Source of the DNA: Pseudooceanicola sp. HF7
GTDB taxonomy: Bacteria > Pseudomonadota > Alphaproteobacteria > Rhodobacterales > Rhodobacteraceae
Assembly (NCBI RefSeq): GCF_011806405.1
Contig: NZ_JAATOW010000032.1
Span: 1-51,478 of the forward strand
Direction of reading: 5' to 3'
DNA: 51,478 nt
Position numbers and translations under genes: made by a program
The notes under the pieces: generated by a model
The model's database searches: none
What the model was told of the DNA's origin: nothing
What the model saw: only the letters and a program-made list of their open reading frames with translations
Part shown: positions 4,309-40,522 of the stretch, piece by piece
Position numbering within the stretch: the stretch's first letter is position 1
How the letters are laid out: each line of letters begins with the position of its first letter

Positions 4309-4377
4309 TTCTGGCTGGTCCGCAGGCAGCGAAAGTTTACACGGGGTTAAATCTTCTATTTTGAGTGAATTTTCCCG

Positions 4378-5219: not shown

Positions 5220-5242
5220 GACGCCATCCGAAAGGACATTGG

Positions 5243-5319
<77 letters not shown>

Positions 5320-5323
5320 ATTT

Positions 5324-5358
5324 CGACACAGCCCTCGCCACTCGCGGGGGCTTTGTCG
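5324..5358 (+). terminator. Hairpin terminator downstream of tRNA-fMet
   Basis: A 14-bp stem with a single mismatch and one G-T pair: CGACACAGCCCTCG pairs with CGGGGGCTTTGTCG around a 7-base loop, starting 4 bases after the tRNA. There is no long T-run after it, so it may also act as a processing barrier. Confidence 0.65.
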
Positions 5359-16350: not shown

Positions 16351-16683
16351 TCAGGCGGTGGCCAGCCGGGGGCTCATCGGATCGGTGATGCGCTGGGCCT
16401 GGAAGGCCTCGGGCAGGGGCTCGATGCTGATGTCCCGGACGATGCCGGCCCCGGCGAAGGGGTCCCCTTCGGCAAAGGCCCGGGCGTCCGCCGCACTGCG
16501 CGCCTCCAGCACCCCGAAATTGCCGAGGGAGGTGCCGCTGTCATCGGTCAGGGCAGAGCCGATCAGGACGGAGACCAGCCCTTCGCCGCCCGAGCCCACC
16601 CACTTGCGGTGCTCGGGACGCAGGGCATCGCGCTTTTCGCCCATGTCCGGGTGGTGCAGGCAGCGCATCAGGAAGAAGGCCAT
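16351..16683 (-). CDS. YciI-like protein
   Basis: 110 residues. MAFFLMRCLHHPDMGEKRDALRPEHRKW with a later FGVLEARSAADARAFAEGDPF matches the YCII-related ferredoxin-like fold, in which a His/Asp pair is usually conserved. The start is chosen where the fold begins; its ATG overlaps the upstream ligB stop (TGATG). It is the last gene of the aromatic operon. YciI-like proteins are often found beside ring-cleavage genes and may act as muconolactone-isomerase-like or chloro-muconolactone-type enzymes, but the function here is inferred. Confidence 0.85.
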   Translation of the reverse strand: MAFFLMRCLHHPDMGEKRDALRPEHRKWVGSGGEGLVSVLIGSALTDDSGTSLGNFGVLEARSAADARAFAEGDPFAGAGIVRDISIEPLPEAFQAQRITDPMSPRLATA

Positions 16684-17525
16684 CACGCGTTCTCCAGCAC
16701 GATGCAGCCGGCGCCGGTCATCGAGGCGGGCAGGTGGTAATGCGTATGCTTGACGGTGACCTCCTGCTGCATGGCCGCGCGCATGACCAGCCACATGATC
16801 AGCTCTGCCCCTTCGGAGCCGAACTTCTCGACGTAGTCCTCGCGGCTCATGGAGCGCCACTTGTCCGGGTCGCTGGCGAAGGTGGCCAGCCAGTCGCGGT
16901 CCGCCTGTTCGTTCAGGAAGCCGGCGCGCGCGCCCTGCAGCTGGTGGGACAGCCCGCCGGTGCCCAGGATCACGACACGCTCATCGCCGGGGAAGCTTTC
17001 GATCGCCTCGCGCAGCACGCGGCCCATGTCCCAGCAGCGCTGCGGGGTGGGGATCGGGAATTGCACGGTGTTGACCCAGATCGGCAGGATCTTGACCGGC
17101 CAGGCGTCTTCGGGGCGGCCGAAGAACAGCTCCATCGGGACCTGGCAGCCATGGTCCACGGTGATCTCACGGGCGATCATCGGGTCGAAATGGCGTTCGA
17201 CCAGCTTGTCGGCGAAGTGCCAGCCCAGGTCCTCTGCCCCGGCGAAATCGGGGATCGCGCGGGGCCCCCAGCCTTCGTCGGAGGGCTTGTAGGTGTCCGC
17301 CACGCCGACCGTGAAGGTGGGCACCCGGTCCAGGAACATGGCATTGCCGTGATCGTTGAAGATGACGACGGCGATGTCGGGCTTGTGCTCCTTCATCCAT
17401 TGCTTGGGGTAATCGTAGCCGTCGAAGAAGGGTTTCCACTGCGGGGTCTGGTCGATCCCCTTGTCGAGCGCGACACAGATGGAGGGCACGTGGCTGGTGC
17501 CAAGTCCGCCGATGATCTCAGCCAT
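16683..17525 (-). CDS. ligB: Extradiol ring-cleavage dioxygenase beta subunit (LigB-type)
   Basis: 280 residues. Non-haem Fe(II) ligands expected from Sphingobium LigB are present: His12 (GTSHVPS), His59 (FNDHGN) and a Glu near 238-241 (GSEGAELIMW); the catalytic base is His194 (GTGGLSHQ). It cleaves a catechol-type ring next to the diol, with protocatechuate 4,5-cleavage the best match. It overlaps ligA by 8 bases (start 17525, ligA stop 17518), so the two subunits are coupled. The usual downstream genes (ligC, ligI, ligJ, ligK) are absent, so a related substrate such as gallate or another catechol remains possible. Confidence 0.88.
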   Translation of the reverse strand: MAEIIGGLGTSHVPSICVALDKGIDQTPQWKPFFDGYDYPKQWMKEHKPDIAVVIFNDHGNAMFLDRVPTFTVGVADTYKPSDEGWGPRAIPDFAGAEDLGWHFADKLVERHFDPMIAREITVDHGCQVPMELFFGRPEDAWPVKILPIWVNTVQFPIPTPQRCWDMGRVLREAIESFPGDERVVILGTGGLSHQLQGARAGFLNEQADRDWLATFASDPDKWRSMSREDYVEKFGSEGAELIMWLVMRAAMQQEVTVKHTHYHLPASMTGAGCIVLENA

Positions 17526-20755: not shown

Positions 20756-20769
20756 TGGGGTGTTATTGC

Positions 20770-20922
20770 GACGGGGGCGCACGGGAAACCGGGCTGAGAC
20801 GTACCCTTTGAACCTGAACCAGATAATGCTGGCGGAGGGAGGCGCAGACAGAACGCCTTGCCCCCGCGCGATAGTGCCTTCTGTCCGGTCCTGTCTTCGT
20901 CATCCGAGTGAGGAGACCGAAG
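20770..20922 (+). promoter_or_regulatory. TPP riboswitch (THI element) with SD-masking hairpin
   Basis: The aptamer is recognised by GGGCTGAGAC, ACCCTTTGAACCTGA, and CCAGATAATGCTGGCGGAGGGA (about 20770-20845), the conserved core that binds thiamin pyrophosphate. It is followed by a 7-bp stem GACAGAA / TTCTGTC (20847-20885). A second stem CTTCG (20895-20899) / CGAAG (20918-20922) encloses the ribosome site AGGAG of thiM. Translational control by hiding the ribosome site when TPP is bound is therefore likely. Confidence 0.95.
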
Positions 20923-25112: not shown

Positions 25113-25937
25113 GTGGCGCGATACCGCAAGACAGTGCTAAGCCTTCCCGCGCCGCGCCCCGGCGCGGATCACCGGCTGACGCTTTTCCTGCCGGACGGGC
25201 CCGCACCGGCGGCGGGGCGCGCGACCCTGTGGTACCTGGATGGCAATGCCGCCGCACAGGATCTGGACGCCGCCACGCTTGACGCGATCCCGGGACCAGG
25301 CGCCCCGGTGCTGATCTGCCTGGGCCACGAGGGCGCAGAGCGTTTCGCCTCTCTTGAGCGGACGCGGGATTACACGCCGGAAGGGCAGGCGACCGATCCG
25401 CGCGGCCGCCCGGCCGGGGGCGCGCCGTCCTTCTGGCAGCGCCTGACCGAACAGCTGATCCCGGCGGCAGAGGCGCATTTTACCGCCGATCCCACCGCCC
25501 GGCAGCTTTGGGGCCATTCCTACGGCGGGCTCTTCGTGCTGCGCGCGGCGCTGCTTGCAGGCCCGCCCAACCTCTTCAGCGGCTTCATCGCGGCCAGCCC
25601 GGCGCTCTGGTGGAATCACGCGGGCTACCTGGCCCGACTGCACGCCGCGCTGGAGGCCGGGCAGCGCCCCCAGGCCCCCATCGCCTTTCACACCGGCGGG
25701 GCAGAGCGCGAACGGGCCAGCCAGCCCAGCGATCCCACCGCCCAGCCGCTGCTTAAGATGCGCGCCGCCCTGCCGCCCGATGCCCTGGAAGGGCTGGTCG
25801 CGGCCTTCGCCCGGGCGGGCAATCCCGGTGCCTTCACCGTCTTTCCCGGCCTCAGCCATGGAGAGACCTTCACCCGCTCCGTCAGGGTCGCGGCCCTCGC
25901 GGCGGGCGCTGACCCTGGCGTGACGGGCCAAGCCTAA
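25113..25937 (+). CDS. Siderophore-esterase-like alpha/beta hydrolase (IroE/BesA type)
   Basis: 274 residues from GTG 25113, with AGGAGA 7 bases upstream. RTRDYTP (83-89), nucleophile elbow GHSYGG (Ser136), ASPALWW and the histidine in GLSHGETF are the characteristic set of the Fes/IroE/BesA esterase group, which opens trilactone siderophores such as enterobactin or bacillibactin to release iron. No signal peptide, so cytoplasmic. Placement at the left end of a catecholate-siderophore locus supports this role. Other acyl-ester substrates cannot be excluded. Confidence 0.82.
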   Translation: MARYRKTVLSLPAPRPGADHRLTLFLPDGPAPAAGRATLWYLDGNAAAQDLDAATLDAIPGPGAPVLICLGHEGAERFASLERTRDYTPEGQATDPRGRPAGGAPSFWQRLTEQLIPAAEAHFTADPTARQLWGHSYGGLFVLRAALLAGPPNLFSGFIAASPALWWNHAGYLARLHAALEAGQRPQAPIAFHTGGAERERASQPSDPTAQPLLKMRAALPPDALEGLVAAFARAGNPGAFTVFPGLSHGETFTRSVRVAALAAGADPGVTGQA

Positions 25938-25975
25938 CCCGCGAAATCGTGAGCCTTTTCCTCGCCCGGCATTAG

Positions 25976-26004
25976 TTGACTATCTTGGTCGGGATTATTA
26001 ATCC
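25976..26004 (+). promoter_or_regulatory. Promoter region with GGATTA-T-TAATCC dyad
   Basis: TTGACT (25976-25981) followed by 17 bases and TAATCC gives a possible promoter. The -10 region is embedded in the dyad GGATTA-T-TAATCC (25992-26004), which could be a repressor site. It is the only AT-rich part of the 250-base gap before the YncE-like gene. The iron-regulator identity (RirA, Irr, other) is not determined. Confidence 0.45.
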
Positions 26005-26145
26005 TGCCGGCGATCGTCCTGGGTCGGGCGCGCCTTGACGCGCCACGGGCAGGCAACGCGGGACCGGCCCTGGCCCCGTGCACAGCCCCTGGGGCTGACG
26101 ACTGAGCCACAGCCACGCTGCAGCAAACAGGGCAAGCATATTTCC

Positions 26146-26169
26146 GGAGGGCGGATCAGATCTGCCTCC
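26146..26169 (+). promoter_or_regulatory. Leader hairpin just before the YncE-like start
   Basis: GGAGGGCGGAT pairs with ATCTGCCTCC (one bulged G, one G-T pair) around CAG, ending 21 bases before the ATG. It lies in a leader of about 180 bases and might affect translation or mRNA stability. Confidence 0.35.
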
Positions 26170-26190
26170 TTGCAGCGAAAGGTCGTATTC

Positions 26191-27579
26191 ATGAAACAGT
26201 GCTCCCAAAGCATTCGGGGCTGGCTGAAGGCATCCGCCATGGCCGGCGCGCTGGCGCTTGGTGCCGTGGCCGCCCAGGCAGAGCCCTTTGCAGAGCTGGG
26301 CAGTTTCGAGGGGCGTCTTGGCGCCTCCAGCGAAAGCCGCGGTCCGATCGTCCCGGGAAGCGAGGTCCTTCTGGGCGGGCGTGGCCTGACCCCGGGGCAG
26401 CAGGTCACCCTGCGCCAGAACGGCGAACAGCTGGGCGAGACGGTGAGCGCGGATGAGAACGGCGAGTTCCGCCTGACCGTGACCATCCCGGAAGATGCCG
26501 CGCCGGGCGCCTACCCGGTGGTGGCGGAATTCGCCAACCCGGCCTTTGCCACCACCTTCGACGTGCGCGTCGCCCCGGTGCTGGGCCCGATCGGCGTTGA
26601 GGATTTCACCGTGGACAGCCACAAGGGCGTCCGTGGCCTGTACCAGGTGGCCGAAGCGCCTGAGCTGAATGCGGTCTACGTGGCCGCCGCCAACGGCCGC
26701 CCGCCGGTCACGGAAAGCTACATCGCCAAGCTGGATATCGATTCGCTTGAGGTGCTGGCCAGCGTGAGCCCGGCCGAGGCCCCCGAAGAGGGCAGTTCCT
26801 CGGGCAGTGTCTTCGCGGCCTACGGGATCGGCGTGGACGAGATCCGCGGCCAGGTCTGGGTGACCAACACCCGCCAGGACACGGTCGCGGTCTATGCCGC
26901 CGATGACCTCTCGCTGATCAAGCAGTTCGATTCGGGCACCGTCAGCCATGCGCGCGACGTGGTGCTTTACGGCGGCGAGGCCTATGTCTCGGCTACCTTT
27001 ACGCCCAATATCGCGGTCTTCGATGCCGACAGCCTTGAGCTTGTCGACACCATCGAGATCCAGACGGGCCAACGCGGCGAGACCTTCGGTACCGCCTCCC
27101 TGTCGCTGGACGCCGAAGCGGGCAAGCTGGTCGTGGCCGGTCTGGGTACCTCTGAGGTTGCCGTGCTCGACCTGGGCACGGGAGAGCAGAAGGTCTTCCA
27201 CGTTCCCGGCGCAGAGCGCGTGATCGGCGTGGCCGAGGATACCGCACGCAACCGGATCTACACCGCGAACTCCGGCTCTGACGACGTGTCGATCCTGGAT
27301 GCGGAAACCGGTGAGCTGATCAAGTCCGTTCCCGTCGGCTCCGGCCCGCTGAACGTGGCCGTGGACCCGGAAAGCGGCCTGGCCTACGTGGCAGTGCGCG
27401 GCTCCGGCACGGTGGTGGTGATCAATGCCGACGGAGAGGTTGTCGGCAACCTTGATGTCGGCACCTTCCCGAACCACTTGGCGGTGGATTCCAAGGGCGG
27501 CGTCCTGGTGGTCAACAAGCGCTCGGGCGATGACGACCCCAAGGGCGACCTGGTCACCCGCATCACTCCGAAGATGTAA
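26191..27579 (+). CDS. Secreted YncE-like beta-propeller protein
   Basis: 462 residues. Signal peptide about 1-30 (AMAGALALGAVAAQA before EPFAEL), so periplasmic or exported. An Ig-like segment (about 50-130: GSEVLLGGRGLTPGQQVTLRQ) is followed by a seven-bladed propeller with YVTN-type repeats such as AYGIGVDEIRGQVWVTNTRQDTVAVY, RNRIYTANSGSDDVSILDAE and GLAYVAVRGSGTVVVINADG. E. coli YncE has the same propeller and is linked to iron limitation, which suits this siderophore locus. The exact function of the family is unknown. The start ATG 26191 is used because the signal peptide begins there. A terminator-like hairpin follows, before the entE-like gene. Confidence 0.85.
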   Translation: MKQCSQSIRGWLKASAMAGALALGAVAAQAEPFAELGSFEGRLGASSESRGPIVPGSEVLLGGRGLTPGQQVTLRQNGEQLGETVSADENGEFRLTVTIPEDAAPGAYPVVAEFANPAFATTFDVRVAPVLGPIGVEDFTVDSHKGVRGLYQVAEAPELNAVYVAAANGRPPVTESYIAKLDIDSLEVLASVSPAEAPEEGSSSGSVFAAYGIGVDEIRGQVWVTNTRQDTVAVYAADDLSLIKQFDSGTVSHARDVVLYGGEAYVSATFTPNIAVFDADSLELVDTIEIQTGQRGETFGTASLSLDAEAGKLVVAGLGTSEVAVLDLGTGEQKVFHVPGAERVIGVAEDTARNRIYTANSGSDDVSILDAETGELIKSVPVGSGPLNVAVDPESGLAYVAVRGSGTVVVINADGEVVGNLDVGTFPNHLAVDSKGGVLVVNKRSGDDDPKGDLVTRITPKM

Positions 27580-27590
27580 GACCAAGACCC

Positions 27591-27620
27591 CCGGCCGCGC
27601 AGGGATTGCGCGGCCGGTTT
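27591..27620 (+). terminator. Hairpin between yncE-like and entE-like genes
   Basis: Perfect 10-bp stem CCGGCCGCGC / GCGCGGCCGG with a 7-base loop and TTT after it. The short T-run suggests partial termination, which would give more yncE-like than biosynthetic transcript. Confidence 0.7.
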
Positions 27621-27641
27621 CCCTGCCGGAGTACCCATCCC

Positions 27642-29321
27642 ATGACCTCTTCCCTTCTTCCGGTCACGCAGACCTGGCCCGACGATCTTGCCGCGCTTTA
27701 CAAGGCGCGCGGCTACTGGCGGGGAGAGACCTTCCCGGCCATGTTGCGCCGGATCGGCGCGCAGCATGGCGACCGGATCGCCTTCAGCGAGGGGGCGCGG
27801 CAGGAAAGCTACCGTGACTTCGCCGCCCGGGCGCAGGCCTTCGGGGCGGGGCTGCTGGAGCGCGGCTATGCCCCCGGCGACAGGGTGCTGATCCAGCTGG
27901 GCAACAGCATTGCCTTCTTCCATGCCGCCTTCGGCCTGTTCGCCGCCGGGCTGGTGCCGGTCTATGCGCTGCCTGCCCACCGCCGGACGGAGATCGCGCA
28001 CCTGCTGCGCAAGTCGCAGGCCGTGGCGATGATCACCCATGACCGGCTGGACGGCTTCGATCACGCGGGGCTTGCCGCCCAGATGCTGGAAGAGATCCCC
28101 GGGCTGCGCGACGCCTTCATCGTGGGAGAGGCCGGCGCGCTGACCGGTTTCGACAGTATCGCGGGCGACCCCGCGACCCTGCCTGAGGACCCCGATCCAC
28201 AGAGCGTGGCGTTCCTGCAGATCTCTGGCGGGTCGACCGGCATGTCCAAGCTGATCCCGCGCACCCATGACGATTACATCTATTCGCTCTGGGCCAGCAA
28301 CGAGATCTGCGGCGTTACCGAAGACAGCGTCTATGGCGCGGTGCTGCCGGTGGCCCATAATTTCACCATGTCCTCTCCGGGCTGCTACGGCGCGCTTTAT
28401 GCCGGGGCGCGGGTGGTTCTTTTCCCCTCTCCGGTGCCGGACGCGGCCTTTCCGCTGATCCGGCAAGAAGGCGTGACTATCACCGGGCTGGTGCCGCCGC
28501 TGGCGCTGCTCTGGCTGGATGCGGCAGAGAAGGCGGGGGGCGCGCGCACCGCGCGGGACCTGGCCTCTCTCAAGGTGCTGCTGGTGGGCGGGGCGAAGTT
28601 CCTGCCCGAAAGCGCGCGGCGCGTGAAGCCGGTGCTGGGCTGCACGCTGCAACAGGTCTTCGGCATGGCCGAGGGGCTGGTGAACTACACCCGCCTTGAC
28701 GATGACGAAGCCACGATCACGCAAACCCAGGGCCGCCCGATCAGCCCGGATGACGAGGTGCGCGTGCTGGACGACGCGGGCAATCCGGTGGCCGATGGCA
28801 CCCCCGGGCACCTGCTGACCCGTGGCCCTTACACGATCCGAGGCTATCACGACGAACCCGCCGCCAACGAGCGCAGCTTCGAGGACGGCTGGTATCGCAC
28901 CGGCGATATCGTGATCCGCCACCCCTCTGGCCACCTGACGGTGCAGGGGCGCGCCGGGGATCACATCAACCGCGCCGGAGAGAAGATCAGCGCCGAAGAG
29001 GTGGAGGATCACCTGGTCGCCCATCCCGCCGTGCTGGATGCGGTCGTCGTCTCCATCCCCGATGCCAAGCTGGGCGAACGCATTGCCGCCTTCATCCTGC
29101 CGAAGGAAGGGCAGGCGCTGCGGGCGGTGGATATCCGCAAGTTCATGCGCTCGCGCCAGGTGGCGCCCTTCAAGACCCCGGACGAGATCCGCTTCGTCAC
29201 GGGGTTCGGCACCACCGCCGTGGGCAAGATCAGTCGCAAGACCCTGCGCGCCGAGCTGCGCGAAGAGGTGCTGAAGGCCGAAGCGGCCGAGGCCCGCAAA
29301 ACGGAAGAAGAAAAGATATGA
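27642..29321 (+). CDS. entE: Aryl-AMP ligase, 2,3-dihydroxybenzoate type (EntE/DhbE-like)
   Basis: 559 residues. Adenylation core motifs: QISGGSTGMSKLIPRTHDDY, QQVFGMAEGLVNYTRLDD, YRTGDIV and NRAGEKISAEEVEDHL. It activates an aryl acid with ATP and loads it onto the carrier protein encoded next. The pocket segment reads AHNFTMSSPG. Dihydroxybenzoate enzymes have AHNY-x-x-SSPG and salicylate enzymes AHNF-x-x-x-CPG or ACPG, so Phe is salicylate-like, while Ser and the later EGLVN are dihydroxybenzoate-like. 2,3-Dihydroxybenzoate is favoured. The start ATG 27642 has GGAG 9 bases upstream. The stop overlaps the carrier gene start. Confidence 0.88.
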   Translation: MTSSLLPVTQTWPDDLAALYKARGYWRGETFPAMLRRIGAQHGDRIAFSEGARQESYRDFAARAQAFGAGLLERGYAPGDRVLIQLGNSIAFFHAAFGLFAAGLVPVYALPAHRRTEIAHLLRKSQAVAMITHDRLDGFDHAGLAAQMLEEIPGLRDAFIVGEAGALTGFDSIAGDPATLPEDPDPQSVAFLQISGGSTGMSKLIPRTHDDYIYSLWASNEICGVTEDSVYGAVLPVAHNFTMSSPGCYGALYAGARVVLFPSPVPDAAFPLIRQEGVTITGLVPPLALLWLDAAEKAGGARTARDLASLKVLLVGGAKFLPESARRVKPVLGCTLQQVFGMAEGLVNYTRLDDDEATITQTQGRPISPDDEVRVLDDAGNPVADGTPGHLLTRGPYTIRGYHDEPAANERSFEDGWYRTGDIVIRHPSGHLTVQGRAGDHINRAGEKISAEEVEDHLVAHPAVLDAVVVSIPDAKLGERIAAFILPKEGQALRAVDIRKFMRSRQVAPFKTPDEIRFVTGFGTTAVGKISRKTLRAELREEVLKAEAAEARKTEEEKI

Positions 29322-29593
29322 CCCAGGATGAGCTCTTGCTTGGCCATGCGCAGATGCAGGCCGATATCGCGGAACAGATCGGTATCCCGCCCCATGAGGT
29401 GGAGCCGCAGGAAAGCCTTGTCGACCTGGGGCTGGACAGCATCCAGGTGATGACCTTGCTGATGAAATGGGGCGAGAAGATCGAGGGCCTCGATTTCTCG
29501 CGCTTCATGGAGGCGGAGACGCTTGAGGAATGGTGGGCCATTGCCGAAGCGGCCCAGACGGGCCCGGCAGCGGGTAAGGCAGCAGTCCGGTGA
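29318..29593 (+). CDS. Free-standing aryl carrier protein
   Basis: 91 residues, a single carrier domain. DLGLDSIQVM carries the phosphopantetheine-accepting Ser41. The sequence resembles the C-terminal carrier domain of EntB, but the isochorismatase domain normally fused to it is missing. It would hold the activated aryl acid for transfer to the synthetase. It overlaps the entE-like gene by four bases and the synthetase gene by four bases (GTGA), so all three are translationally coupled. A phosphopantetheinyl transferase is required and is not in the window. Confidence 0.88.
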   Translation: MTQDELLLGHAQMQADIAEQIGIPPHEVEPQESLVDLGLDSIQVMTLLMKWGEKIEGLDFSRFMEAETLEEWWAIAEAAQTGPAAGKAAVR

Positions 29594-32500
29594 AGCAATT
29601 GGTATCGCAGTCGCAGGGCTACCCGGCGGCCGCCCGGCCGCTCTGTGACACCCAGGACGGCATCTGGTACGCGCAGCGCCGCGATCCCGGCTCACCCACC
29701 TTCATGACCGGTCAGGCGCTCTGGCTGGAGGGGCCGCTGGACCGCGCCGCCCTTGCGCGCGCGGTCGATCAGGTTTGCGCAGAGGCCGAATGCCTGTCCC
29801 TGCGCTTTGCCGAAACGGCCGAGGGCCCGGTGCAATGGCTGGAACCCGGTGGCGCGCCCCGGCTGGCGTTCCGCGACCTCTCGGACGATCCCACGCCAGA
29901 GGCCAGCGCCCGCGCCGCGATCCTGGCAGAGGCCCAGGCGCCCGTGGACCTGCGCGCCGGACCGATCGCGGGCTTCACTCTCTGGACCCTCGCGCCGGAC
30001 CGCCACGTGCTGAGCGAACGCATCCACCACCTCGCCGCCGATGGCTATGCGATGGTGCTGATCACCAACCGCATCGCCGCGCTTTACAACGCCTTCGTGA
30101 CCGGCAGCCCGGCAGAGGATGGCTTCCCCCCCTATGAACAGGCGATCGAGGCCGAGGCCCGCTACCGCGATGCCCCGAAGCGCGAAAAGGATCGCGCCTA
30201 TTGGCTGGAGGCCCTGAAGGACCTGCCGGAGATAGAGGGGATGGCCCCGGGTGATCCCGTCGCCTCTGCCTGGTTTCACCGGCACGAGGTGGCACTGGGC
30301 ACTGATACGCTGGAACGCCTGCGCAGGGTGGCCGCCGATACCGGCCTGTCCTGGCCCGATGTGCTTTGCGCACTGAGCGCGGCCTATACCGCCCGCTGCC
30401 TTCCGCCCGTTCCCGGGCAGGAAGGGGCCCCGCGTGAGGTTGTGCTGGGCGTGCCGCTGATGAACCGCATGGGATCGAAGGCGGCGCGGGTGCCCTCCAC
30501 CCTGGTGAACGTGCTGCCCCTGCGCCTGGTGGTCGATGAAGAGGCGCCGCTGGCCGACTGGCTGAAGGAAAGCGGCGCGGCGATGGCGGCCCTGCGCCGT
30601 CACGGCAAGTACCGCGGAGAGGCCCTGCGGCGCGAGCTGGGCCGGCTTGGCGGGCAGCGCCGCCTGCACGGGCCGCTTGTCAACGTGCTGCCCTTCGATG
30701 CCACGCCGAAGCTGGCCGGGCTGGACAGCCAGCTGCAGATCCTCGGCGCGGGCTCCGTCGATGACATCACCTTCTGTTTCCGGGGCGACGGGCAAAGCCT
30801 GCTGGTGCAATGCGATGCCAACCCCGCGCTCTATTCCAAGGCGACGACCCGCGGCCATGCCGCCCGGCTGGCAGCCTTCCTGGAAAACGCCCTTTCGGCC
30901 GACCGCTTGCTGGATCTGCCGACCCTGACGCCAGAAGAACACCAGCGTCACGTCACCACACGCAATGCCACCGACCACCCGGTGCCGGAGACCTCGCTTG
31001 CCGCCCTGACAGAGGCGCAGATCGCGGCGACACCACAGGCCCCCGCGCTGGTCTTCGGCGCAGAGACCTTGAGCTATGCAGAGCTGGACCGCCGCAGCAT
31101 TTCCCTGGCCCGCCGGCTTGCCGCGCGCGGCATCGGGCGGGGGGATACGGTGGCCGTGGCTCTGCCACGCTCGGTCGCGCTGATCCTGGCGTTGCAGGCG
31201 GTCATGCGCTGCGGTGCGGCCTATGTGCCGCTGGATCCCGAAGATGCCTCGGCCCGCCGAGCGGACATGCTGGACCGCGCCGCGCCCAAGCTGATCCTGG
31301 CAGAGGCGGATTTCGACGCCGCCGCAAGTGACGCCCCCGTGCTGCCGCCCGAGGATTGGGACGAGGGCGAAGAGGCCACGCCCGAAGGCCCCCGGCCCGG
31401 GGATCCAGCCTATGTGTTGTTCACCTCCGGCTCTACCGGCACGCCCAAGGGCGTGGTGATCGAACACGGCGCCATCGTGAACCGGCTGCTGTGGATGCAG
31501 GCCGAATATGGCATCGGCCCGGGCGACCGGGTGTTGCAGAAGACGCCGGCGACCTTCGATGTCTCTGTCTGGGAGTTCTTCCTGCCCTTCCTGTCCGGTG
31601 CGACGCTTGTGGTGGCCCCGCCCGGCGCGCATCGCGATCCGGTGGCGCTGGCCGGGATCATCCGCGATCAGCAGATCACCGTGCTGCATTTCGTGCCCTC
31701 CATGCTGGCGCTCTTCCTGGCGGCCCCGGCTGCCAAGGGGCTGGCGATCCCCAAGGTCTTTGCCAGCGGAGAGGCACTGCCGGTCACCCTGGCGCGGCAG
31801 TTCCACCAGGTGATCACCGGGCGGCTGCATAACCTTTACGGGCCTACCGAAGCTGCCGTGGACGTGACCTTCCGTGAGGGGCAAGGGGATGAGCCAGGCG
31901 CCTCCGTCCCCATCGGCACCCCGGTCTGGAACACCCGCTGCTACCTGCTGGATGACCGCCTGCGGCCCGTGCCCGACGGGGTGACCGGGCGGCTCTGGCT
32001 GGCCGGGCGCCAACTGGCGCGCGGCTACCTGGGCCAGCCCGAACTGACGGCAGAACGCTTCCCCGAAGACCCCTTCGACCCCGGCGCGCGCATGTATGAC
32101 ACCGGTGACCTGGCGACCATGGCGCCGGATGGCACGATCACCTACCAGGGCCGTGCCGATTTCCAGGTCAAGATCCGGGGCGTCCGGATCGAGCTGGGAG
32201 AGGTCGAGGATGCCCTGGCCCGCACCGGCCTTGTCGCCCAGTCCGCCGTGTTGGCGCTGCCCGATCATGCCGGGCGGGACCGGCTGGTGGCCTATGTCAT
32301 CGCGCAAGAGGGCGCGACGCCCGCCACCATACGCGACGCCCTGTCGTCCCGGCTGCCCGCCATGATGATGCCCGCCGTCATCGTGCCGCTGACGGCCTTT
32401 CCGCTGAACCCCTCGGGCAAGCTGGATCGCAAGGCGCTGCCCGCCCCGCAGGCAGAGGCCGCATCCCCCGTCCGCCCGCTGGCGCCGGGCGCGGAAAGCC

Positions 32501-33525
32501 GCCTTGGCGCGCTTTACGCAGAGGTGCTGGGCCTGTCCCGCGTCACCCCGGAGACCGATTTCTTTGCCGCCGGGGGGGACAGCCTGATGGCGGTGCGCCT
32601 GAGCCTGCGCATAGAGGAGGTCTTTGGCAGCGATCCGGGCCTGGGCACCCTGTTCGAGGCCCCGGTGCTTTGCGACCTGGCCCGTCGGCTGGAGCAGCAG
32701 GGCGCGGCCCATGACGACGGGCTTGGCCCGGTGGTGCAGCTTTCCAGCGGCACGGCGGGGCCGAAGCTGTTTGCCATCCACCCGGCGGGCGGCATCGCCT
32801 GGTGCTATCGCGGTTTCGCCGCCCATCTGCCGGGGGTGGACCTGGTCGGGCTGCAATCGCCGCTGCTGGATCCCGCCGCTCCCTTGCCGGCGGACCTGGA
32901 CAGCCTGGCGCGGGCCTATTGCGACCGGATCGAGGCCCTTGCGCCGGAGGGGCCGCTCTACCTGATGGGCTGGTCCCTTGGCGGCATCATCGCCCATGCC
33001 ATCGCTGCCGAGGCGGAGGCCCGCGGCCGCCACCTGGGCCTTCTGGCGCTGCTGGATGCCTATCCCTCCCAATGCTGGCGCGACGAGCCGGAGCCGGACG
33101 AGGGCGCGGCGATCCGAGCCCTGCTGGCGATCGCCGGTCATGATCCGGATGCCTATCCGAAGCTGGTCAGCCGGGAGGATATCCTGGGCTTCCTGCGCGA
33201 GGCGGGCCATCCGCTGGGCCATCTGCCGCGCGCGGTGCAACAGGGGGTCGTGCGCTCCGTCCAGCAGACCAACCGGCTGGTGCGCAGCCACAGGGAGCGC
33301 CCCGTCCGCGCGCGGGTCCTGCATGTGCATGCCACCCGCGATCACGCGGGCACCGGCCGCAGCCCGCAGCTGTGGCAAGAACACTGTGGCGGGGTCGATG
33401 TGCTGGACCTGGATTGCCACCACTCCGACCTGGTATCGCTTGTGCAGATACCTGAAATCACACGGGAAATTCGCGACTTTATGCAATCATCGCGGGAAGA
33501 TGTAGCAGCCCCGCCACAGGCATAG
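29590..33525 (+). CDS. entF: Nonribosomal peptide synthetase, EntF-type C-A-PCP-TE, serine code
   Basis: 1311 residues from GTG 29590. Condensation domain about 15-430 with HHLAADG (146-152). Adenylation domain about 455-960 with TSGSTGTPKG (612-621). Carrier domain with Ser998 in GGDSL. Thioesterase about 1060-1300 with GWSLGG (Ser1129) and a histidine at 1277 or 1278. The ten pocket residues read D657 V658 W661 H700 F724 S726 L749 V757 D758 K944, equal to the DVWHFSLVDK code of E. coli EntF for L-serine. The thioesterase end (DCHHSDLVS) aligns with EntF (DCAHVDIIS). It likely joins aryl acid to serine and releases a cyclic or linear oligomer. An MbtH-like partner is not seen nearby. Confidence 0.93.
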   Translation: MKQLVSQSQGYPAAARPLCDTQDGIWYAQRRDPGSPTFMTGQALWLEGPLDRAALARAVDQVCAEAECLSLRFAETAEGPVQWLEPGGAPRLAFRDLSDDPTPEASARAAILAEAQAPVDLRAGPIAGFTLWTLAPDRHVLSERIHHLAADGYAMVLITNRIAALYNAFVTGSPAEDGFPPYEQAIEAEARYRDAPKREKDRAYWLEALKDLPEIEGMAPGDPVASAWFHRHEVALGTDTLERLRRVAADTGLSWPDVLCALSAAYTARCLPPVPGQEGAPREVVLGVPLMNRMGSKAARVPSTLVNVLPLRLVVDEEAPLADWLKESGAAMAALRRHGKYRGEALRRELGRLGGQRRLHGPLVNVLPFDATPKLAGLDSQLQILGAGSVDDITFCFRGDGQSLLVQCDANPALYSKATTRGHAARLAAFLENALSADRLLDLPTLTPEEHQRHVTTRNATDHPVPETSLAALTEAQIAATPQAPALVFGAETLSYAELDRRSISLARRLAARGIGRGDTVAVALPRSVALILALQAVMRCGAAYVPLDPEDASARRADMLDRAAPKLILAEADFDAAASDAPVLPPEDWDEGEEATPEGPRPGDPAYVLFTSGSTGTPKGVVIEHGAIVNRLLWMQAEYGIGPGDRVLQKTPATFDVSVWEFFLPFLSGATLVVAPPGAHRDPVALAGIIRDQQITVLHFVPSMLALFLAAPAAKGLAIPKVFASGEALPVTLARQFHQVITGRLHNLYGPTEAAVDVTFREGQGDEPGASVPIGTPVWNTRCYLLDDRLRPVPDGVTGRLWLAGRQLARGYLGQPELTAERFPEDPFDPGARMYDTGDLATMAPDGTITYQGRADFQVKIRGVRIELGEVEDALARTGLVAQSAVLALPDHAGRDRLVAYVIAQEGATPATIRDALSSRLPAMMMPAVIVPLTAFPLNPSGKLDRKALPAPQAEAASPVRPLAPGAESRLGALYAEVLGLSRVTPETDFFAAGGDSLMAVRLSLRIEEVFGSDPGLGTLFEAPVLCDLARRLEQQGAAHDDGLGPVVQLSSGTAGPKLFAIHPAGGIAWCYRGFAAHLPGVDLVGLQSPLLDPAAPLPADLDSLARAYCDRIEALAPEGPLYLMGWSLGGIIAHAIAAEAEARGRHLGLLALLDAYPSQCWRDEPEPDEGAAIRALLAIAGHDPDAYPKLVSREDILGFLREAGHPLGHLPRAVQQGVVRSVQQTNRLVRSHRERPVRARVLHVHATRDHAGTGRSPQLWQEHCGGVDVLDLDCHHSDLVSLVQIPEITREIRDFMQSSREDVAAPPQA

Positions 33526-33533
33526 TGTTTTTG

Positions 33534-33549
33534 TCAGGAATTTTCCTGA
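33534..33549. promoter_or_regulatory. Perfect dyad TCAGGAA-TT-TTCCTGA upstream of the receptor gene
   Basis: TCAGGAATTTTCCTGA starts 9 bases after the synthetase stop and lies 134 bases before the receptor ATG. Arms are 7 bp with a 2-base centre, the size expected of a dimeric repressor site, for example an iron regulator. A second inverted pair ACCTAT / ATAGGT lies at 33565-33595. Confidence 0.5.
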
Positions 33550-33682
33550 GCGATTTACTCGGATACCTATGGCGCCTATCCCCCGCGCTATAGGTCATCG
33601 TCACTCCAGCCCGGGATCCCCTCCCGTATTGCCAGAAAGAACGTCCTCGGCCTTTCCACGCAATAGTCCTAGGGGGATTACC

Positions 33683-35938
33683 ATGAAGCCGCTGAACCGG
33701 CCGTCCGTCCGGAGCCTTCTTACCATGACCACGTCGGCCCTTCTGCTGGCCGGCCTGCCTGCCTTTGCGCAGGACGCACCCGATGCGATCAATACCGCAG
33801 AGGATATGGTCTTCCTGGGCGATGACGGTGAAGTCATCGTCCTTGACCCGATCATCGTCCAGGCCGCATCCGATGAGCTGAAGCAGGCGCCCGGTTCCTC
33901 GCTGATCACGGGCGAGGACCTGCAGCGCCGCCCGGTCTCCAACGACGTCTCCGAAGCCGTGCGCCGGATGCCCGGCGCCAACCTGACCGGCAACACCACC
34001 ACCGGCCAGCGCGGCAACAACCGCCAGATCGACCTGCGCGGCATGGGCCCGGAAAACACCCTGATCCTGGTCGACGGCCGCCCAGTCCTGTCGCGGAACT
34101 CCGTCCGCATGGGCCGCTCGGGCGAGCGTGACACACGTGGCGATTCCAACTGGGTTCCGGCGGAAGCCATCGATCGGATCGAGGTCATCCGTGGCCCGGC
34201 GGCCGCGCGCTACGGCTCCGGCTCCGCGGGCGGCGTGGTGAACATCATCACCAAGCGCCCCGACAAGCCCACCACCACCGTCAGCCTCTACGGGGAGGTC
34301 AAGCAGGACAGCGACGAGGGCAACACCTTCCGGACCAACGTCCTCACCTCCGGCCCGCTCAGCGAGCGGCTCTCCTACCGGACCTACCTGAGCTACAACC
34401 AGACTGCGGGCGATTCCCCCGACATCAACGCGGAAGCCACCGATGAGAACAGCGGCGTGGCCGCGGGCCGCGAGGGGGTCAAGAACGTCGACTTCTCGAA
34501 CCTGTTCGAATATGAGCTCGACGGCGCCAACACGCTGGGTTTCGAGCTGTCCTACAGCCGCCAAGGCAACGAATATGCCGGTGACGCGCTGTTCCAGGAC
34601 ATCGAAAGTGTCCCCACTGACCTGATCGGCACGGAAACCAACGTGATGCAGCGGACCGTCCTGGCCCTGATCCACGAGGGGTCCTATTCCTTCGGCGACA
34701 GCCTCAGCTACATCCAGTACGAGCACACCGACAACTCCCGCCTGTCCGAAGGCGCGTCCGGCGGTCGTGAGGGCCTGATCCCGGGCGATGCCGAATTCGT
34801 CACCACCCTGCTGAACAACGTCACCGCGAAGACCGAATGGAACCTGCCCTCGCAGTTCATGGGCTACAACCAGACCCTTACCCTGGGCGCGGAATACCGG
34901 GGCGAGTTCATGTATGACCCGTCTTCGGTCAGCGGCGCCACCACCGGCGGCGTGGACATCCCGGGCACGACGACGGATCCGTCGCAGCGCGACACGCGGA
35001 TGAACTCCCACCAGATCGGCCTTTATGCCGAAGACAACATTTTGGTCGGCGACCGCCTGACCCTGACCCCGGGCCTGCGGATGGACTGGCATTCGGAGGT
35101 GGGCGTCAACCTGTCGCCCAGCCTGAACGCGACCTACGAGGCCACCGAAAACCTGACGATCCAGGCCGGTGTCGGACGGGCCTTCAAGGCGCCGAACCTC
35201 TACCAGCTTAATCCCGACTACGTGTACCGGACCAGGGGAAACGGGTGCCCGGTGGCCTATCCGAACCTGGGCGGCGGCTGTGTCATCCTCGGCAACCCCG
35301 ACCTGACCTATGAGACCTCCGTGAACGCCGAGCTGGGCGTGAACTACCAAACGGACTCCGGTCTCAACGCAGGCCTGACCTACTTCCACAACGAATACCG
35401 CGACAAGATCCAGGCCTCGCTGGAGCCGGAAGCGGTGATCGGGACGACGCAGGTTTTCAGGTGGGTCAACATCCCCCGCGCCATGGTCGAGGGCCTGGAG
35501 GGCAACCTCTTCGTGCCGATCAATGACCGCCTCGGCTGGAGCACCAACGCCACGGTCATGATCAACTCGGTCAACCGCTCGACCGGTCAGCCGCTCTCGC
35601 TGGTGCCTGACTACACGATCAACACCGAGCTCGACTACGAGGTGACGGACAACTGGAGCCTGACCATCGGCGCAACCCACTACGGCGAAACGCCCAGCCC
35701 GAGGATCTCCGTGACCAACGGCGAAGAGGTCACCAATCCGAGGCCGCGCTCTCCCTACACGCTGGTCGATGTCACCACCTCCTATACCTACGAGCCCTAT
35801 GACATGACGGTGACCGCCGGGATCAAGAACATCTTCGACACCCGGATCTATCGTGAAGGCACCTCGAACAAAGCCGGTGCCAACACCTACAATGAGCCCG
35901 GCCGGACTTTCCTGGTCGAGCTGACCAAGACCTTCTGA
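33683..35938 (+). CDS. TonB-dependent catecholate-siderophore receptor (FepA-like)
   Basis: 751 residues, close to FepA (746 before processing). Signal peptide about 1-29 (ALLLAGLPAFAQDAP). Plug domain about 50-200 with GEDLQRRPVSNDVSEAVRRMPGANL, RQIDLRGMGPENTLILVDGRP and IEVIRGPAAARYGSGSAGGVVNIITK. The 22-strand barrel ends in a terminal phenylalanine (VELTKTF). FepA/PfeA-type proteins import ferric enterobactin and its breakdown products, matching the adjacent EntF-type synthetase. The start ATG 33683 has AGGGGG just upstream. A strong terminator follows, so the RND genes are a separate unit. Confidence 0.93.
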   Translation: MKPLNRPSVRSLLTMTTSALLLAGLPAFAQDAPDAINTAEDMVFLGDDGEVIVLDPIIVQAASDELKQAPGSSLITGEDLQRRPVSNDVSEAVRRMPGANLTGNTTTGQRGNNRQIDLRGMGPENTLILVDGRPVLSRNSVRMGRSGERDTRGDSNWVPAEAIDRIEVIRGPAAARYGSGSAGGVVNIITKRPDKPTTTVSLYGEVKQDSDEGNTFRTNVLTSGPLSERLSYRTYLSYNQTAGDSPDINAEATDENSGVAAGREGVKNVDFSNLFEYELDGANTLGFELSYSRQGNEYAGDALFQDIESVPTDLIGTETNVMQRTVLALIHEGSYSFGDSLSYIQYEHTDNSRLSEGASGGREGLIPGDAEFVTTLLNNVTAKTEWNLPSQFMGYNQTLTLGAEYRGEFMYDPSSVSGATTGGVDIPGTTTDPSQRDTRMNSHQIGLYAEDNILVGDRLTLTPGLRMDWHSEVGVNLSPSLNATYEATENLTIQAGVGRAFKAPNLYQLNPDYVYRTRGNGCPVAYPNLGGGCVILGNPDLTYETSVNAELGVNYQTDSGLNAGLTYFHNEYRDKIQASLEPEAVIGTTQVFRWVNIPRAMVEGLEGNLFVPINDRLGWSTNATVMINSVNRSTGQPLSLVPDYTINTELDYEVTDNWSLTIGATHYGETPSPRISVTNGEEVTNPRPRSPYTLVDVTTSYTYEPYDMTVTAGIKNIFDTRIYREGTSNKAGANTYNEPGRTFLVELTKTF

Positions 35939-36169: not shown

Positions 36170-37408
36170 ATGACCGCCCCAAGTAATGTTACGCAGTTCG
36201 CGGCCGCCCGACATCGCGCGCCCTTCACGCCGGTGACCCTGCGCGGCGTCAGCTGGCTGCTGCTGGCCTGCCTTGTGCTGCTGGTACTTCCCGCACAGGT
36301 CCGGGCGCAGTTCGGCGGGGCCGGGGGCCCTGCGCAGGTGGGCGTCGTGACGCTTGAGCAAAGCCTGGTGCCTTACACGGTCACGCTGCCCGGTCGCGCC
36401 GTGGCCCATGACGATACGGAGGTGCGCCCCCGCGTCGAAGGCATCATCGAAGAGATCGCCTATCGCCCCGGCACGCGGGTCGCGGCGGGGGATGTGCTGT
36501 TCCGGCTGGAAACCGATACCTATGACCTGGCCCTGCTGGCCGCCGAGGCGCAGCGCGCCAGTGCGCGCTCTGCCGTGGCCGTGGCCCAGTCCACCGTGGA
36601 TCGCTACAACAAGCTGACCTCGGCCGCGATCAGCCAGGCGGACCGGGACGGGGCCGATGCCACGCTGGCCTCTGCCCAGGCCACGCTTGCCGCGGCAGAG
36701 GCCTCGCTCAAATCCGCCCAGCTGAACCTGGACCGCACGGTGATCCGCAGCCCCATCGACGGGATCGTGGGGCTTTCGGATTATTCCGTCGGCGCCCTGG
36801 TCACCGCCAACCAGAGCGATCCGCTGACCACCGTGACCCGGGTGGACCCGATCTATGTCGATGTGCAGGAAAGCTCTGCCCGGATGCTGCGCAACCGCGC
36901 CCGGATGGAATCCGGCGCCCTGCAACCCAGCGACAAGGTTGAGATCCGGTTGGTCCTGGAAACAGGCCGGATCTACGAGGGGACCGGCACGCTGGTGACC
37001 CCGTCGACGGCGGTTTCCACCACTACCGGCACGGTCGATTTCCGCTTTGAATTCGACAACCCGGACCGGCTGCTGATGCCCGGCCAGTTCCTGCGCGTCA
37101 CCGCAGAGGTCGGCAAGATTGAGGCGATCCTGGTGCCGCAGCGCGCCACCTCGCGCAGCTCGGACGGCACGCTGACCGCCTTTGTCGCAGAAGACGGCAC
37201 CGCCCGGCAGGTCACCCTGACAACGCAGGGCGCTTATCAGAACGCCTGGATCGTGACCGCCGGCGTCGAGGACGGGCAACGCCTGGTCGTCGACGGTCTG
37301 CGCAACCTGGCCGCCGGGGCACAGATCGCCCCGGTGCCGGTCACCATCGACGCAGATGGGATCGTGCGCGACGCCGCGCAGGATGCCCCTGAAAGCGCGG
37401 GAGACTGA
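36170..37408 (+). CDS. RND efflux periplasmic adaptor (AcrA/MexA-type)
   Basis: 412 residues. An N-terminal membrane anchor or signal (about 24-46), then the lipoyl and hairpin parts (GIIEEIAYRPGTRVAAGDVLFRLETDTY; LAAAEASLKSAQLNLDRTVIRSPIDGIVGLSDYSVGALV) and the beta-barrel segment GTVDFRFEFDNPDRLLMPGQFLRV. It links the inner-membrane pump to a TolC-type outer channel. GGAGAAGAA stands immediately before the ATG. Six bases separate its stop from the pump gene. Its place after the siderophore receptor suggests siderophore export, as AcrA/MexA-type pumps do in some bacteria; drug efflux is the alternative. Confidence 0.92.
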   Translation: MTAPSNVTQFAAARHRAPFTPVTLRGVSWLLLACLVLLVLPAQVRAQFGGAGGPAQVGVVTLEQSLVPYTVTLPGRAVAHDDTEVRPRVEGIIEEIAYRPGTRVAAGDVLFRLETDTYDLALLAAEAQRASARSAVAVAQSTVDRYNKLTSAAISQADRDGADATLASAQATLAAAEASLKSAQLNLDRTVIRSPIDGIVGLSDYSVGALVTANQSDPLTTVTRVDPIYVDVQESSARMLRNRARMESGALQPSDKVEIRLVLETGRIYEGTGTLVTPSTAVSTTTGTVDFRFEFDNPDRLLMPGQFLRVTAEVGKIEAILVPQRATSRSSDGTLTAFVAEDGTARQVTLTTQGAYQNAWIVTAGVEDGQRLVVDGLRNLAAGAQIAPVPVTIDADGIVRDAAQDAPESAGD

Positions 37409-37414: not shown

Positions 37415-40400
37415 ATGGTCAATTTCTTCATTCACCGCCCGGTCTTCGCCTGGGTGCTGGCCATCGTCACCATGCTGGCCGGCGCCTTTTCCTTCACCCG
37501 GCTTCCGGTCTCCCAATACCCCGAGATCGCGCCCACAACGATCCGCATCTCTGCCGGCTACTCCGGGGCGACGGCGGATGCGGTCCAGAACTCCGTCACA
37601 TCGGTGATCGAGGACAGCCTGACGGGGATCGACGGGCTGCTCTACATGGTCTCCTCCTCGCGCCAGGGTTCCGCGAGCGTCACGCTGACCTTCGATGAAA
37701 GCGTCGATGCGGTCGATGCCCAGAACGAGGTCCAGTCAAAGATCAGCCAGGTGGAAGGCCAGCTGCCCGGTAGGGTGCAATCCCGGGGCGTGACCGTCAC
37801 GCGATCCTCAGATGCCATCCTGCTGGTGGGTGCGCTGGTGTCCAAGGACAAGCGCTTTTCCACGATCGAGCTGGGCGACATCCTGGACAACATGGTGACC
37901 GGCCCGGTGCAGCGCACCGAAGGGGTCGGGGGCATCAACGCCTTTGGCTCCGGCTACGCGATGCGCATCTGGCTGGATCCCTTGGCGCTGTCGCAATACC
38001 AGCTGACGCCCAAGGACGTGACCGACGCGGTCGAGGCCCAGAACACCACGGTTTCCGTGGGCTCCCTGGGGGATATGCCGACCACGCAGGGCCAGCAGTT
38101 CACCGCCACGATCACTGCGCAAAGCCAGCTGACCTCTGCCGTGGAATTCGAACAGATCCTGCTGAAAACGGAAGAGGACGGCGCGGCGGTCTTCTTGGGC
38201 GATGTCGCCAAGGTCGAGATCGGGCAGGAGGATTACGGGTCGAACTCCTTCTTCAACGGCTCCAACGCGGCGGGCTTCGGCGTGAACCTGGCAACCGGGG
38301 CCAACGCGGTGGATACCGCGGCGGCCGTGCGCGCCACGCTGGACCGGCTTGCGCCGGCGCTGCCCGCGGGCGTGGACATCGAATATGCCTATGACACCTC
38401 GCCCTTCGTCGAGCTGTCGATCGAAAAGGTCTATCACACGCTGATCGAGGCCGTGGTGCTGGTGCTGCTGGTGATCCTGATCTTCCTGCAGAAATGGCGC
38501 GCCACGCTGATCCCGATCATCGCCGTGCCGGTGGTTCTGCTGGGCACCTTCACGGTGCTGGCGGCGGCCGGCTTCTCCATCAACACGCTGACCATGTTCG
38601 CCATGGTGCTGGCCATCGGCCTGCTGGTGGATGACGCCATCGTGGTGGTCGAGAACGTCGAGCGGGTGATGGAGGAAGAGGGCCTTGGCCCGCTGGAGGC
38701 CACCATCAAGGGCATGAGCCAGATCACCGGGGCGCTGATCGGCATCGCGCTGGTGCTCTCTGCGGTCTTCCTGCCCATGGCCTTCATGGGCGGCTCGACC
38801 GGGGTGATCTACCGGCAGTTCTCCGTCACGATCATCACCGCGATGGTCCTGTCGGCGCTGGTGGCGCTGATCCTGTCCCCGGCGCTCTGCGCGACCATGC
38901 TGCGCCCGGCGAAGGCGGGCGGCGGCATTGCGCCCGCGCGCTGGTTCAACCGCACCTTCGACCGCATCAACGCCGGCTACACGGGCAGCGTGGGCCGCCT
39001 GCTGAAGGCACCCTTCCTCATGCTGATCGTTCTGCTGGGCGTGGCGATCGGGGCCTCTGCGCTGTACACGCGGCTGCCCTCCTCCTTCCTGCCGGAAGAG
39101 GACCAGGGCGTGATGCTGGTCATCGTGCGGCTGACAGAGGGCTCCACCACCGCGCAGACCCAGGCCGTGGTCGAGGAGATCGACGACTACCTGCGCAACC
39201 AGGAAACCGGCGCGGTGGAAAGCACCTTCTACACCTTGGGCTTCGGCTTCGGCGGCTCGGGGCAGAACGCTGCGATGATCTTCGTCAAGCTGCGCGATTT
39301 CGAGGACCGCGAAGGCGAAGGCATGGGGGCGGGCGATCTTGTCGCGCGCGGCAACGGGCGGTTCTACAACAACCGGGCCGGGCAGATCTTCTTCATGCAG
39401 CCGCCGGCGATCCCGGGGCTGGGCAATACCTCCGGCTTCAGCTTCTACCTGATCGACCAGGCGGGCAACGGGCTGGGCGCCCTGCGCGACGCCGCCAGCC
39501 AGCTGGAAAGCGCCGTGGCAGAGGACGGGCGGGCAGAGAACCTGCGCGTTTCGGGGGACGAGGACGAAGCCGTCCTGCGCATCAACCTGGACCAGCAGAA
39601 GGCCGAAAGCTTCGGGGTCTCCATGAGCTCGGTGAACGCGCTGCTGTCGATCATCTTCTCCGGGTCCGAGGTCAACGACTTCAACATGAACGGTAACCTG
39701 CGCCCGGTGATCGTGCAGGCCGACGCGCCCTACCGGATGCAGCCAGAGGACATCGAACGCTGGTACGCCCGCAACAGCGCCGGAGAGATGGTGCCGTTCT
39801 CCTCCTTCATGACGGTGGAATGGGTCTCTGCCTCGCCGACGCTGGCGCGCTACGGCGGCACCTCGGCGATGTCGATCTCGGGCTCGCCGACCGCCGGCAC
39901 CTCTTCGGGGGATGCGATGGCCGCGATGGAGGAGCTGGTCGCGCAGATCGGCGGCGGTTTCGACGTGGCCTGGACCGGCCTGTCCTACCAGGAGCAGCAA
40001 TCGGGCAACCAGGCGCCCTACCTCTATGCGCTCTCCGTGCTGGTGGTCTTCCTGTCGCTGGCGGCGCTGTATGAAAGCTGGTCGATCCCCTTCTCCGTCA
40101 TGCTGGCGGTGCCGGTGGGCATCCTGGGGGCGCTGCTGGCGGCCTGGGTGACCGGGGGCAGCAACGACGTCTACTTCAAGGTGGGGATCCTGACCACGAT
40201 CGGCCTGGCGGCCAAGAACGCCATCCTGATCGTGGAATTCGCCAAGGACCTTGAGGAACAGGGCAAGGGGCTGGTCGAGGCCACGGTGCAGGCCGCACGG
40301 ATGCGCCTGCGCCCGATCCTGATGACCTCTTTCGCCTTCATGCTGGGGGTCGTGCCCCTGGCCACCGCCAGCGGGGCGGGCGCGGCAGCGCAGAACGCCA

Positions 40401-40522
40401 TCGGGATCGGCGTGCTGGGCGGCATGGCCGCGGCCACCTTCATCGGGGTCTTCATGGTGCCCAGCTTCTACGTCTTCGTGCGCCGGGTCACCGATCGCAA
40501 GGCGCGCTGGGCGGCATCCTGA
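37415..40522 (+). CDS. RND efflux inner-membrane pump (AcrB/MexB, HAE1 type)
   Basis: 1035 residues, full length. It begins FFIHRPVFAWVLAIVTMLAG and RLPVSQYPEIAPTTIRI, typical of HAE1 pumps. Membrane segment 4 contains GLLVDDAIVVVENVERVMEEEG, holding the Asp pair for proton relay, and the second half has GLAAKNAILIVEFAKDLEEQGKG. It exports hydrophobic or amphipathic compounds using proton flow, as a trimer. The outer-membrane channel gene is absent, so a TolC homologue elsewhere is needed. The substrate may be the catecholate product of the upstream synthetase (inferred from position). Confidence 0.95.
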   Translation: MVNFFIHRPVFAWVLAIVTMLAGAFSFTRLPVSQYPEIAPTTIRISAGYSGATADAVQNSVTSVIEDSLTGIDGLLYMVSSSRQGSASVTLTFDESVDAVDAQNEVQSKISQVEGQLPGRVQSRGVTVTRSSDAILLVGALVSKDKRFSTIELGDILDNMVTGPVQRTEGVGGINAFGSGYAMRIWLDPLALSQYQLTPKDVTDAVEAQNTTVSVGSLGDMPTTQGQQFTATITAQSQLTSAVEFEQILLKTEEDGAAVFLGDVAKVEIGQEDYGSNSFFNGSNAAGFGVNLATGANAVDTAAAVRATLDRLAPALPAGVDIEYAYDTSPFVELSIEKVYHTLIEAVVLVLLVILIFLQKWRATLIPIIAVPVVLLGTFTVLAAAGFSINTLTMFAMVLAIGLLVDDAIVVVENVERVMEEEGLGPLEATIKGMSQITGALIGIALVLSAVFLPMAFMGGSTGVIYRQFSVTIITAMVLSALVALILSPALCATMLRPAKAGGGIAPARWFNRTFDRINAGYTGSVGRLLKAPFLMLIVLLGVAIGASALYTRLPSSFLPEEDQGVMLVIVRLTEGSTTAQTQAVVEEIDDYLRNQETGAVESTFYTLGFGFGGSGQNAAMIFVKLRDFEDREGEGMGAGDLVARGNGRFYNNRAGQIFFMQPPAIPGLGNTSGFSFYLIDQAGNGLGALRDAASQLESAVAEDGRAENLRVSGDEDEAVLRINLDQQKAESFGVSMSSVNALLSIIFSGSEVNDFNMNGNLRPVIVQADAPYRMQPEDIERWYARNSAGEMVPFSSFMTVEWVSASPTLARYGGTSAMSISGSPTAGTSSGDAMAAMEELVAQIGGGFDVAWTGLSYQEQQSGNQAPYLYALSVLVVFLSLAALYESWSIPFSVMLAVPVGILGALLAAWVTGGSNDVYFKVGILTTIGLAAKNAILIVEFAKDLEEQGKGLVEATVQAARMRLRPILMTSFAFMLGVVPLATASGAGAAAQNAIGIGVLGGMAAATFIGVFMVPSFYVFVRRVTDRKARWAAS

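Follow-up and report, generated by a model that had tools for sequence, protein, structure and literature searches.

An enterobactin-type locus in Pseudooceanicola sp. HF7 as the probable assembly-and-uptake half of a split pathway

Can a siderophore locus that lacks the genes for its aryl acid precursor serve the cell that carries it, or must that cell obtain the precursor from its neighbours? The question is raised by a 51,478-nucleotide stretch of Pseudooceanicola sp. HF7 (contig NZ_JAATOW010000032.1, hereafter the window), in which an enterobactin-type locus of six genes lies at positions 25113-35938 and none of entC, entB and entA, the genes for 2,3-dihydroxybenzoate (DHB) synthesis, is present. 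A first-pass annotation, made from the letters of the window, had proposed that the aryl acid genes lie elsewhere or that DHB made by other organisms is captured. The first proposal is borne out, since entC, entB and entA were found together on another contig, C17, of the same genome; the second, and with it the idea of a missing precursor, fails for this genome on the same finding. We consider it highly probable that the window holds one half of a split enterobactin-type pathway, that for assembly and uptake, and the strain most likely makes enterobactin, or a linear form of it, with DHB provided in trans. The observations behind this reading are the gene content, the order of domains, the residues of the substrate pockets and the finding of entC, entB and entA in this genome.

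The six-gene siderophore locus

The window is contig C24 of a 4.27-Mb genome in 74 contigs, estimated to be 97.09% complete. Its six siderophore genes are co-oriented on the forward strand and encode, in order, an esterase, a beta-propeller, EntE, an aryl carrier protein, EntF and a FepA-type receptor; the synthetic reading frames are intact and overlap by 4 bases. The enterobactin-type assignment in the first-pass annotation holds for gene content, domains, pocket residues and receptor family, as does its statement that the window has no DHB synthesis, phosphopantetheinyl transferase (PPTase) or MbtH-like gene.

EntE (27606-29321), predicted to be the 2,3-DHB-AMP ligase, aligns best with Bacillus DhbE (1md9, 598 bits) and has Asn and Ser at the positions aligned with DhbE 235 and 240, which we take to be the residues that read the DHB hydroxyls. 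The salicylate ligase 5wm2, unlike the window EntE, has Cys at the position aligned with DhbE 240. The stand-alone aryl carrier protein (29318-29593; PF00550), the equivalent of the EntB C-terminal domain, finds its best solved-structure match in 2fq1, an isochorismatase with a carrier domain (E 8.9e-5), and is accepted as a carrier. EntF (29590-33525) has the condensation-adenylation-thiolation-thioesterase order with the motifs HHLAADG, GGDSL and GWSLGG kept, and its adenylation-pocket segments are the same as those of the serine-activating Escherichia EntF.

The receptor (33683-35938, with the longest open reading frame (ORF) beginning at 33569) belongs to the FepA/PirA family of ferric enterobactin receptors: it scores 895 bits against NF010048, above the cut-off of 493, and PirA and FepA structures match. 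Between entF and fepA lies a perfect inverted repeat, TCAGGAA-TT-TTCCTGA with 7-base arms (33534-33549), a candidate regulator site. The esterase (25113-25937) opens with a GTG start 8 codons past an in-frame stop, and no signal peptide was seen in this reading frame. Its 105-bit match to PfeE and its GHSYGG motif place it among the trilactone esterases of the PfeE/IroE/Fes type; against the Fes model PRK10439 it reaches just 27.5 bits, below the cut-off of 222.

DHB synthesis genes on contig C17

Chorismate-binding and isochorismatase searches of the HF7 genome matched, among other places, C17, a contig of 8,324 bases. It encodes EntC (441 aa), EntB (216 aa, isochorismatase only) and EntA (255 aa), separated by gaps of 18 and 3 bases in an operon-like entC-entB-entA arrangement, so that the genome has the full set for DHB synthesis. 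EntC passes TIGR00543 (246.7 bits, cut-off 224.75). The best match of EntB is chain 7l6j (263 bits), presumably the Stenotrophomonas maltophilia EntB, followed by 2fq1 (204 bits). The tetranucleotide distance between C17 and the window is 0.100, where 8.3-kb chunks of the window lie at 0.087-0.143 from the whole window; the distance is 0.148 from C17 to pieces of four other HF7 contigs and 0.19-0.35 to 19 compared loci of relatives. The composition of C17 thus fits the window, and its genes complement the window set.

That HF7 is unable to make DHB and builds its siderophore from DHB taken up from foreign producers would suit a window without any DHB gene, but it is very improbable with entC, entB and entA side by side in the genome. 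Moreover, the candidate DHB-importing subfamily of tripartite ATP-independent periplasmic (TRAP) transporters discussed below has no match in HF7 at E ≤ 1e-50. A siderophore cluster without precursor genes therefore need not depend on neighbours, and a search of the remaining genome has to precede any such proposal.

The proposed pathway and the nature of its product

In the split pathway, EntC, EntB and EntA from C17 would make DHB, which EntE would activate and load onto the stand-alone carrier. EntF would couple DHB to serine, and cyclisation of three such units is expected of its thioesterase; the FepA-type receptor would then re-import the ferric form, and the esterase would open the ring. 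A split arrangement is functional in Paracoccus denitrificans PD1222 (PMC13251462), and the apparent gap in HF7 is therefore ordinary.

Several scores weigh against this reading. EntE reaches 610 bits against TIGR02275, below the equivalog cut-off, though it still qualifies as a DHB-specific ligase; EntF scores 780 bits against NF007605, far below the cut-off of 2400; and the C17 EntA, at 279.7 against TIGR04316 (dhbA), is just below 300. C17 is also just 8.3 kb long and may lie on any replicon and at any distance from the window. As EntE, EntF and EntA all fall under their NCBIfam equivalog cut-offs, a linear or altered DHB-serine product is possible. A different catecholate, such as linear di- or tri-DHB-Ser released by a diverting thioesterase or an unlinked enzyme, would agree with an EntF that is 35-36% identical to enterobacterial EntF and with the linear forms that accompany enterobactin in Kushneria (PMC13251462). 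We nevertheless regard it as improbable, given that the domain order, serine pocket, thioesterase motif and FepA-type receptor all fit cyclic enterobactin and that the split pathway of P. denitrificans yields enterobactin.

Layout across relatives

Among 295 sampled genomes of the family, EntE was matched at E ≤ 1e-60 in 13, and 10 of these, HF7 included, carry it at 58% identity or more. Matches in G127 (43%), G098 (38%) and G128 (35%) were set aside as belonging to a different type; in G127 an entC-entB-entA set of its own is found nearby. The sole other sampled genome of the genus, G192, gave no EntE match. Orthologues of both EntC (E ≤ 4.9e-65) and EntB (at least 61% identity) occur in the same seven of the 10 EntE genomes: HF7, G094, G071, G258, G067, G273 and G042. 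EntA, sought only in the stretches fetched around these genes, adjoins EntB in G094, G258 and G042 and follows entF in G067; the stretches from G071 and G273 showed no EntA.

EntC stands beside EntE in G067 and about 12 kb off in G042. In the other five (HF7, G094, G071, G258 and G273) the two are on different contigs, which gives no distance since most of these genomes are drafts. The separation can be read directly in Qingshengfaniella (G094), where entC-entB-entA and entE-entF are on two different complete plasmids, and in Paracoccus alcaliphilus, where the three-gene set stands alone about 118 kb from entE on one plasmid. The gene order of the window, from esterase to receptor, recurs in G226, G071, G258 and G149. 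Beyond Rhodobacterales, Brevundimonas, Stenotrophomonas and others have a single entC-E-B-carrier-F-A cluster with a free carrier. HF7 is a new case of the split layout, one in which EntE stays together with EntF while the DHB genes are found on another contig.

The YncE-like seven-bladed propeller (26185-27579) begins with an N-terminal helix or signal-like stretch, and outside HF7 its closest protein, at 73% identity, belongs to Pseudooceanicola algae. Many loci, some of them beyond Rhodobacterales, have a propeller of 39-55% identity alongside esterase and EntF (L008, L011, L015, L017-L020, L088-L093, L179-L183, L186 and L187); any role of the propeller in the pathway is conjectural.

Carrier loading and transport

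The first-pass annotation had called for a genome-wide search for an Sfp-type PPTase and an MbtH-like protein, and neither turned up. No Sfp/EntD-type PPTase was found in the HF7 genome with PF01648 and PF17837: the sole PF01648 match is AcpS, and PF17837 has none. MbtH-like PF03621 likewise has no match there; among 14 control genomes the same search gave matches in E. coli and B. subtilis. Both absences hold genome-wide within search sensitivity. The AcpS gene lies on contig C35 (L007:1492-1920) and is the only PPTase detected, although the genome holds a nonribosomal peptide synthetase.

These two absences count against the split-pathway reading, as does that of a FepBDGC-type ATP-binding cassette importer or EntS among the six genes and their direct neighbours, the part of the genome searched for them. 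An MbtH-like protein is helpful rather than essential, and the lack of an Sfp-type PPTase is not decisive because AcpS could load the carriers. A single PF01648 match, AcpS-like by eye, is also what five others of the 10 EntE genomes have (G094, G071, G149, G273 and G042, making six with HF7), while G258, G067 and G272 have an additional Sfp/EntD-type PPTase and G226 a weak second match (26.9 bits).

The missing PPTase and MbtH genes would also be expected if the synthesis genes were silent and the cluster served mainly for uptake of foreign enterobactin, a reading that Pacificitalea (G149), with a frameshifted entF beside a retained receptor and esterase, would also favour. PPTase counts do not decide the matter, given the six genomes just described, and in HF7 the synthetic frames are open with their 4-base overlaps and entC, entB and entA are kept; silent synthesis is thus unlikely.

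For export, a resistance-nodulation-division (RND) periplasmic adaptor (36170-37408) and permease (37415-40522) follow the receptor gene on the forward strand. By position only, the pair is a possible siderophore exporter, a plausible role because RND pumps secrete stenobactin (PMC9241820).

TRAP transporters in relatives without entC and entB

Precursor capture, very improbable for HF7, could hold in those relatives in which entC and entB are lacking. In three of the 10 EntE genomes (G226, G149 and G272) the best EntC and EntB matches reach at most 32% and 33% identity, respectively. Of eight further named genomes, five have both genes (P. aminovorans, Paracoccus MKU1, Pseudorhodoferax, Lampropedia and Comamonas) and Ottowia has EntC (42%) but no clear EntB (35%). 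In P. shandongensis EntC reaches 31% at best and no EntB was found at E ≤ 1e-10, and Roseomonas rosea, at 31% and 30%, has neither gene. G226, G272, P. shandongensis and R. rosea have an entF frame that stays open along the matched span. On the Pacificitalea (G149) plasmid entF is broken by a frameshift (L091:15432-19219 / L183:11515-15302); this plasmid keeps receptor, esterase and TRAP genes, and entC and entB orthologues were not found in that genome.

A TRAP transporter lies within the siderophore locus in G226, G149, P. shandongensis, Thioclava and Haematobacter (loci L089, L090, L091, L093, L019 and L180). Its binding protein is nearest to Ruegeria SPO1773 and resembles the aromatic-acid type. 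In a search of 17 genomes at E ≤ 1e-50, this protein was matched at 51-58% identity in G226, G149, P. shandongensis (G298) and G272, with a weak match (34%) in Pseudorhodoferax. At that threshold it was found in none of the nine Rhodobacterales genomes having EntC and EntB: HF7, G094, G071, G258, G067, G273 (just 73% complete), G042, P. aminovorans and Paracoccus MKU1. In the last two, EntF but not EntE was seen within the 10-kb flanks.

We tabulated 14 genomes or lineages, with Thioclava counted once. Four have EntE and EntF without an entC or entB orthologue (G226, G149, G272 and P. shandongensis), and three of these, all but G272, carry TRAP inside the siderophore locus, G149 with its frameshifted entF. 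Counts of TRAP+/ent-, TRAP+/ent+, TRAP-/ent- and TRAP-/ent+ were 4, 1, 0 and 9 (Fisher's test, p = 0.005). When G272 was recounted as TRAP-, because its TRAP gene is unlinked and on another branch, they became 3, 1, 1 and 9 (p = 0.041), and with R. rosea added 3, 1, 2 and 9 (p = 0.077); all three tests ignore relatedness. The table leaves out Haematobacter and P. alcaliphilus, of which the chromosomes were not searched, as well as Ottowia, the other genomes from beyond Rhodobacterales and Salipiger CCB-MM3.

Thioclava has TRAP together with entC and entB, and Salipiger CCB-MM3, with entC-entB and a related TRAP binding protein (62%), could be a second counterexample if it also has entE and entF. 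The TRAP+/ent- rows do not form a single group in the EntF tree: G226 and G149 go together, and P. shandongensis falls in another group. The association of TRAP with loss of entC and entB is suggestive only.

We tentatively put forward, as a rather doubtful possibility, that Rhodobacterales share a movable assembly module of esterase, propeller, EntE, carrier, EntF and receptor, uncoupled from DHB synthesis, that some lineages lost entC, entB and entA and have in their stead, within the siderophore locus, a TRAP importer of DHB or DHB-serine made by neighbours, and that HF7 retains both modules, though apart. DHB is among the compounds detected in the Dinoroseobacter shibae exometabolome (PMC5643483). 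If TRAP does import DHB, marine communities would be sharing siderophore building blocks as common goods, and a TRAP+/ent- cell would make a costly siderophore from borrowed ones.

Other features of the window

A thiamine pyrophosphate riboswitch (20763-20857, 66.1 bits) lies upstream of genes that resemble thiamine genes by eye. A LigB-type aromatic ring-opening dioxygenase is encoded on the reverse strand at 16683-17525, about 8 kb from the siderophore locus. No ORF of at least 220 aa is listed for 3260-6630, where a tRNA-Met lies at 5243-5319.

Comparison with known systems

The window locus has EntE, EntF, FepA and esterase functions in common with the enterobactin locus of E. coli. There, unlike here, EntB is fused to the carrier, and EntD, an MbtH-type gene, FepBDGC and EntS are in the cluster. 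Thioclava plasmids NZ_CP149927.1 and NZ_CP135444.1 have esterase, propeller, EntE, carrier and EntF in the same order at 44-65% identity, but include entC, entB, entA and a TRAP transporter in the same locus and place fepA ahead of the esterase. The ent locus of S. maltophilia resembles HF7 in encoding isochorismatase and aryl carrier (EntB') as separate genes (PMC12210187), whereas Stenotrophomonas loci L022, L024, L026 and L030 keep entC, E, B, carrier, F and A all together.

The remark in the first-pass annotation that no such layout was known in Rhodobacteraceae does not hold, because comparable cases appear in PMC4771312 (2016) and PMC13251462 (2026). In the roseobacters Citreicella SE45 and Oceanicola S124, TonB receptors adjoin entE- and entF-like genes as in the window (PMC4771312). 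TRAP transporters occur in two siderophore clusters of that study, with a proposed role in siderophore uptake; the window locus has no TRAP genes. An earlier case of entA and entB outside a siderophore cluster is described in PMC3343012. A close parallel in layout is P. denitrificans PD1222, of the same bacterial order as HF7, which makes enterobactin from non-colocalised genes, and more of it under iron limitation (PMC13251462). In that strain entF is far from the dhb genes, while HF7 keeps EntE, carrier and EntF in one locus and has entC, entB and entA on a different contig. The split layout is thus already known in Rhodobacterales, and the window locus adds another case.

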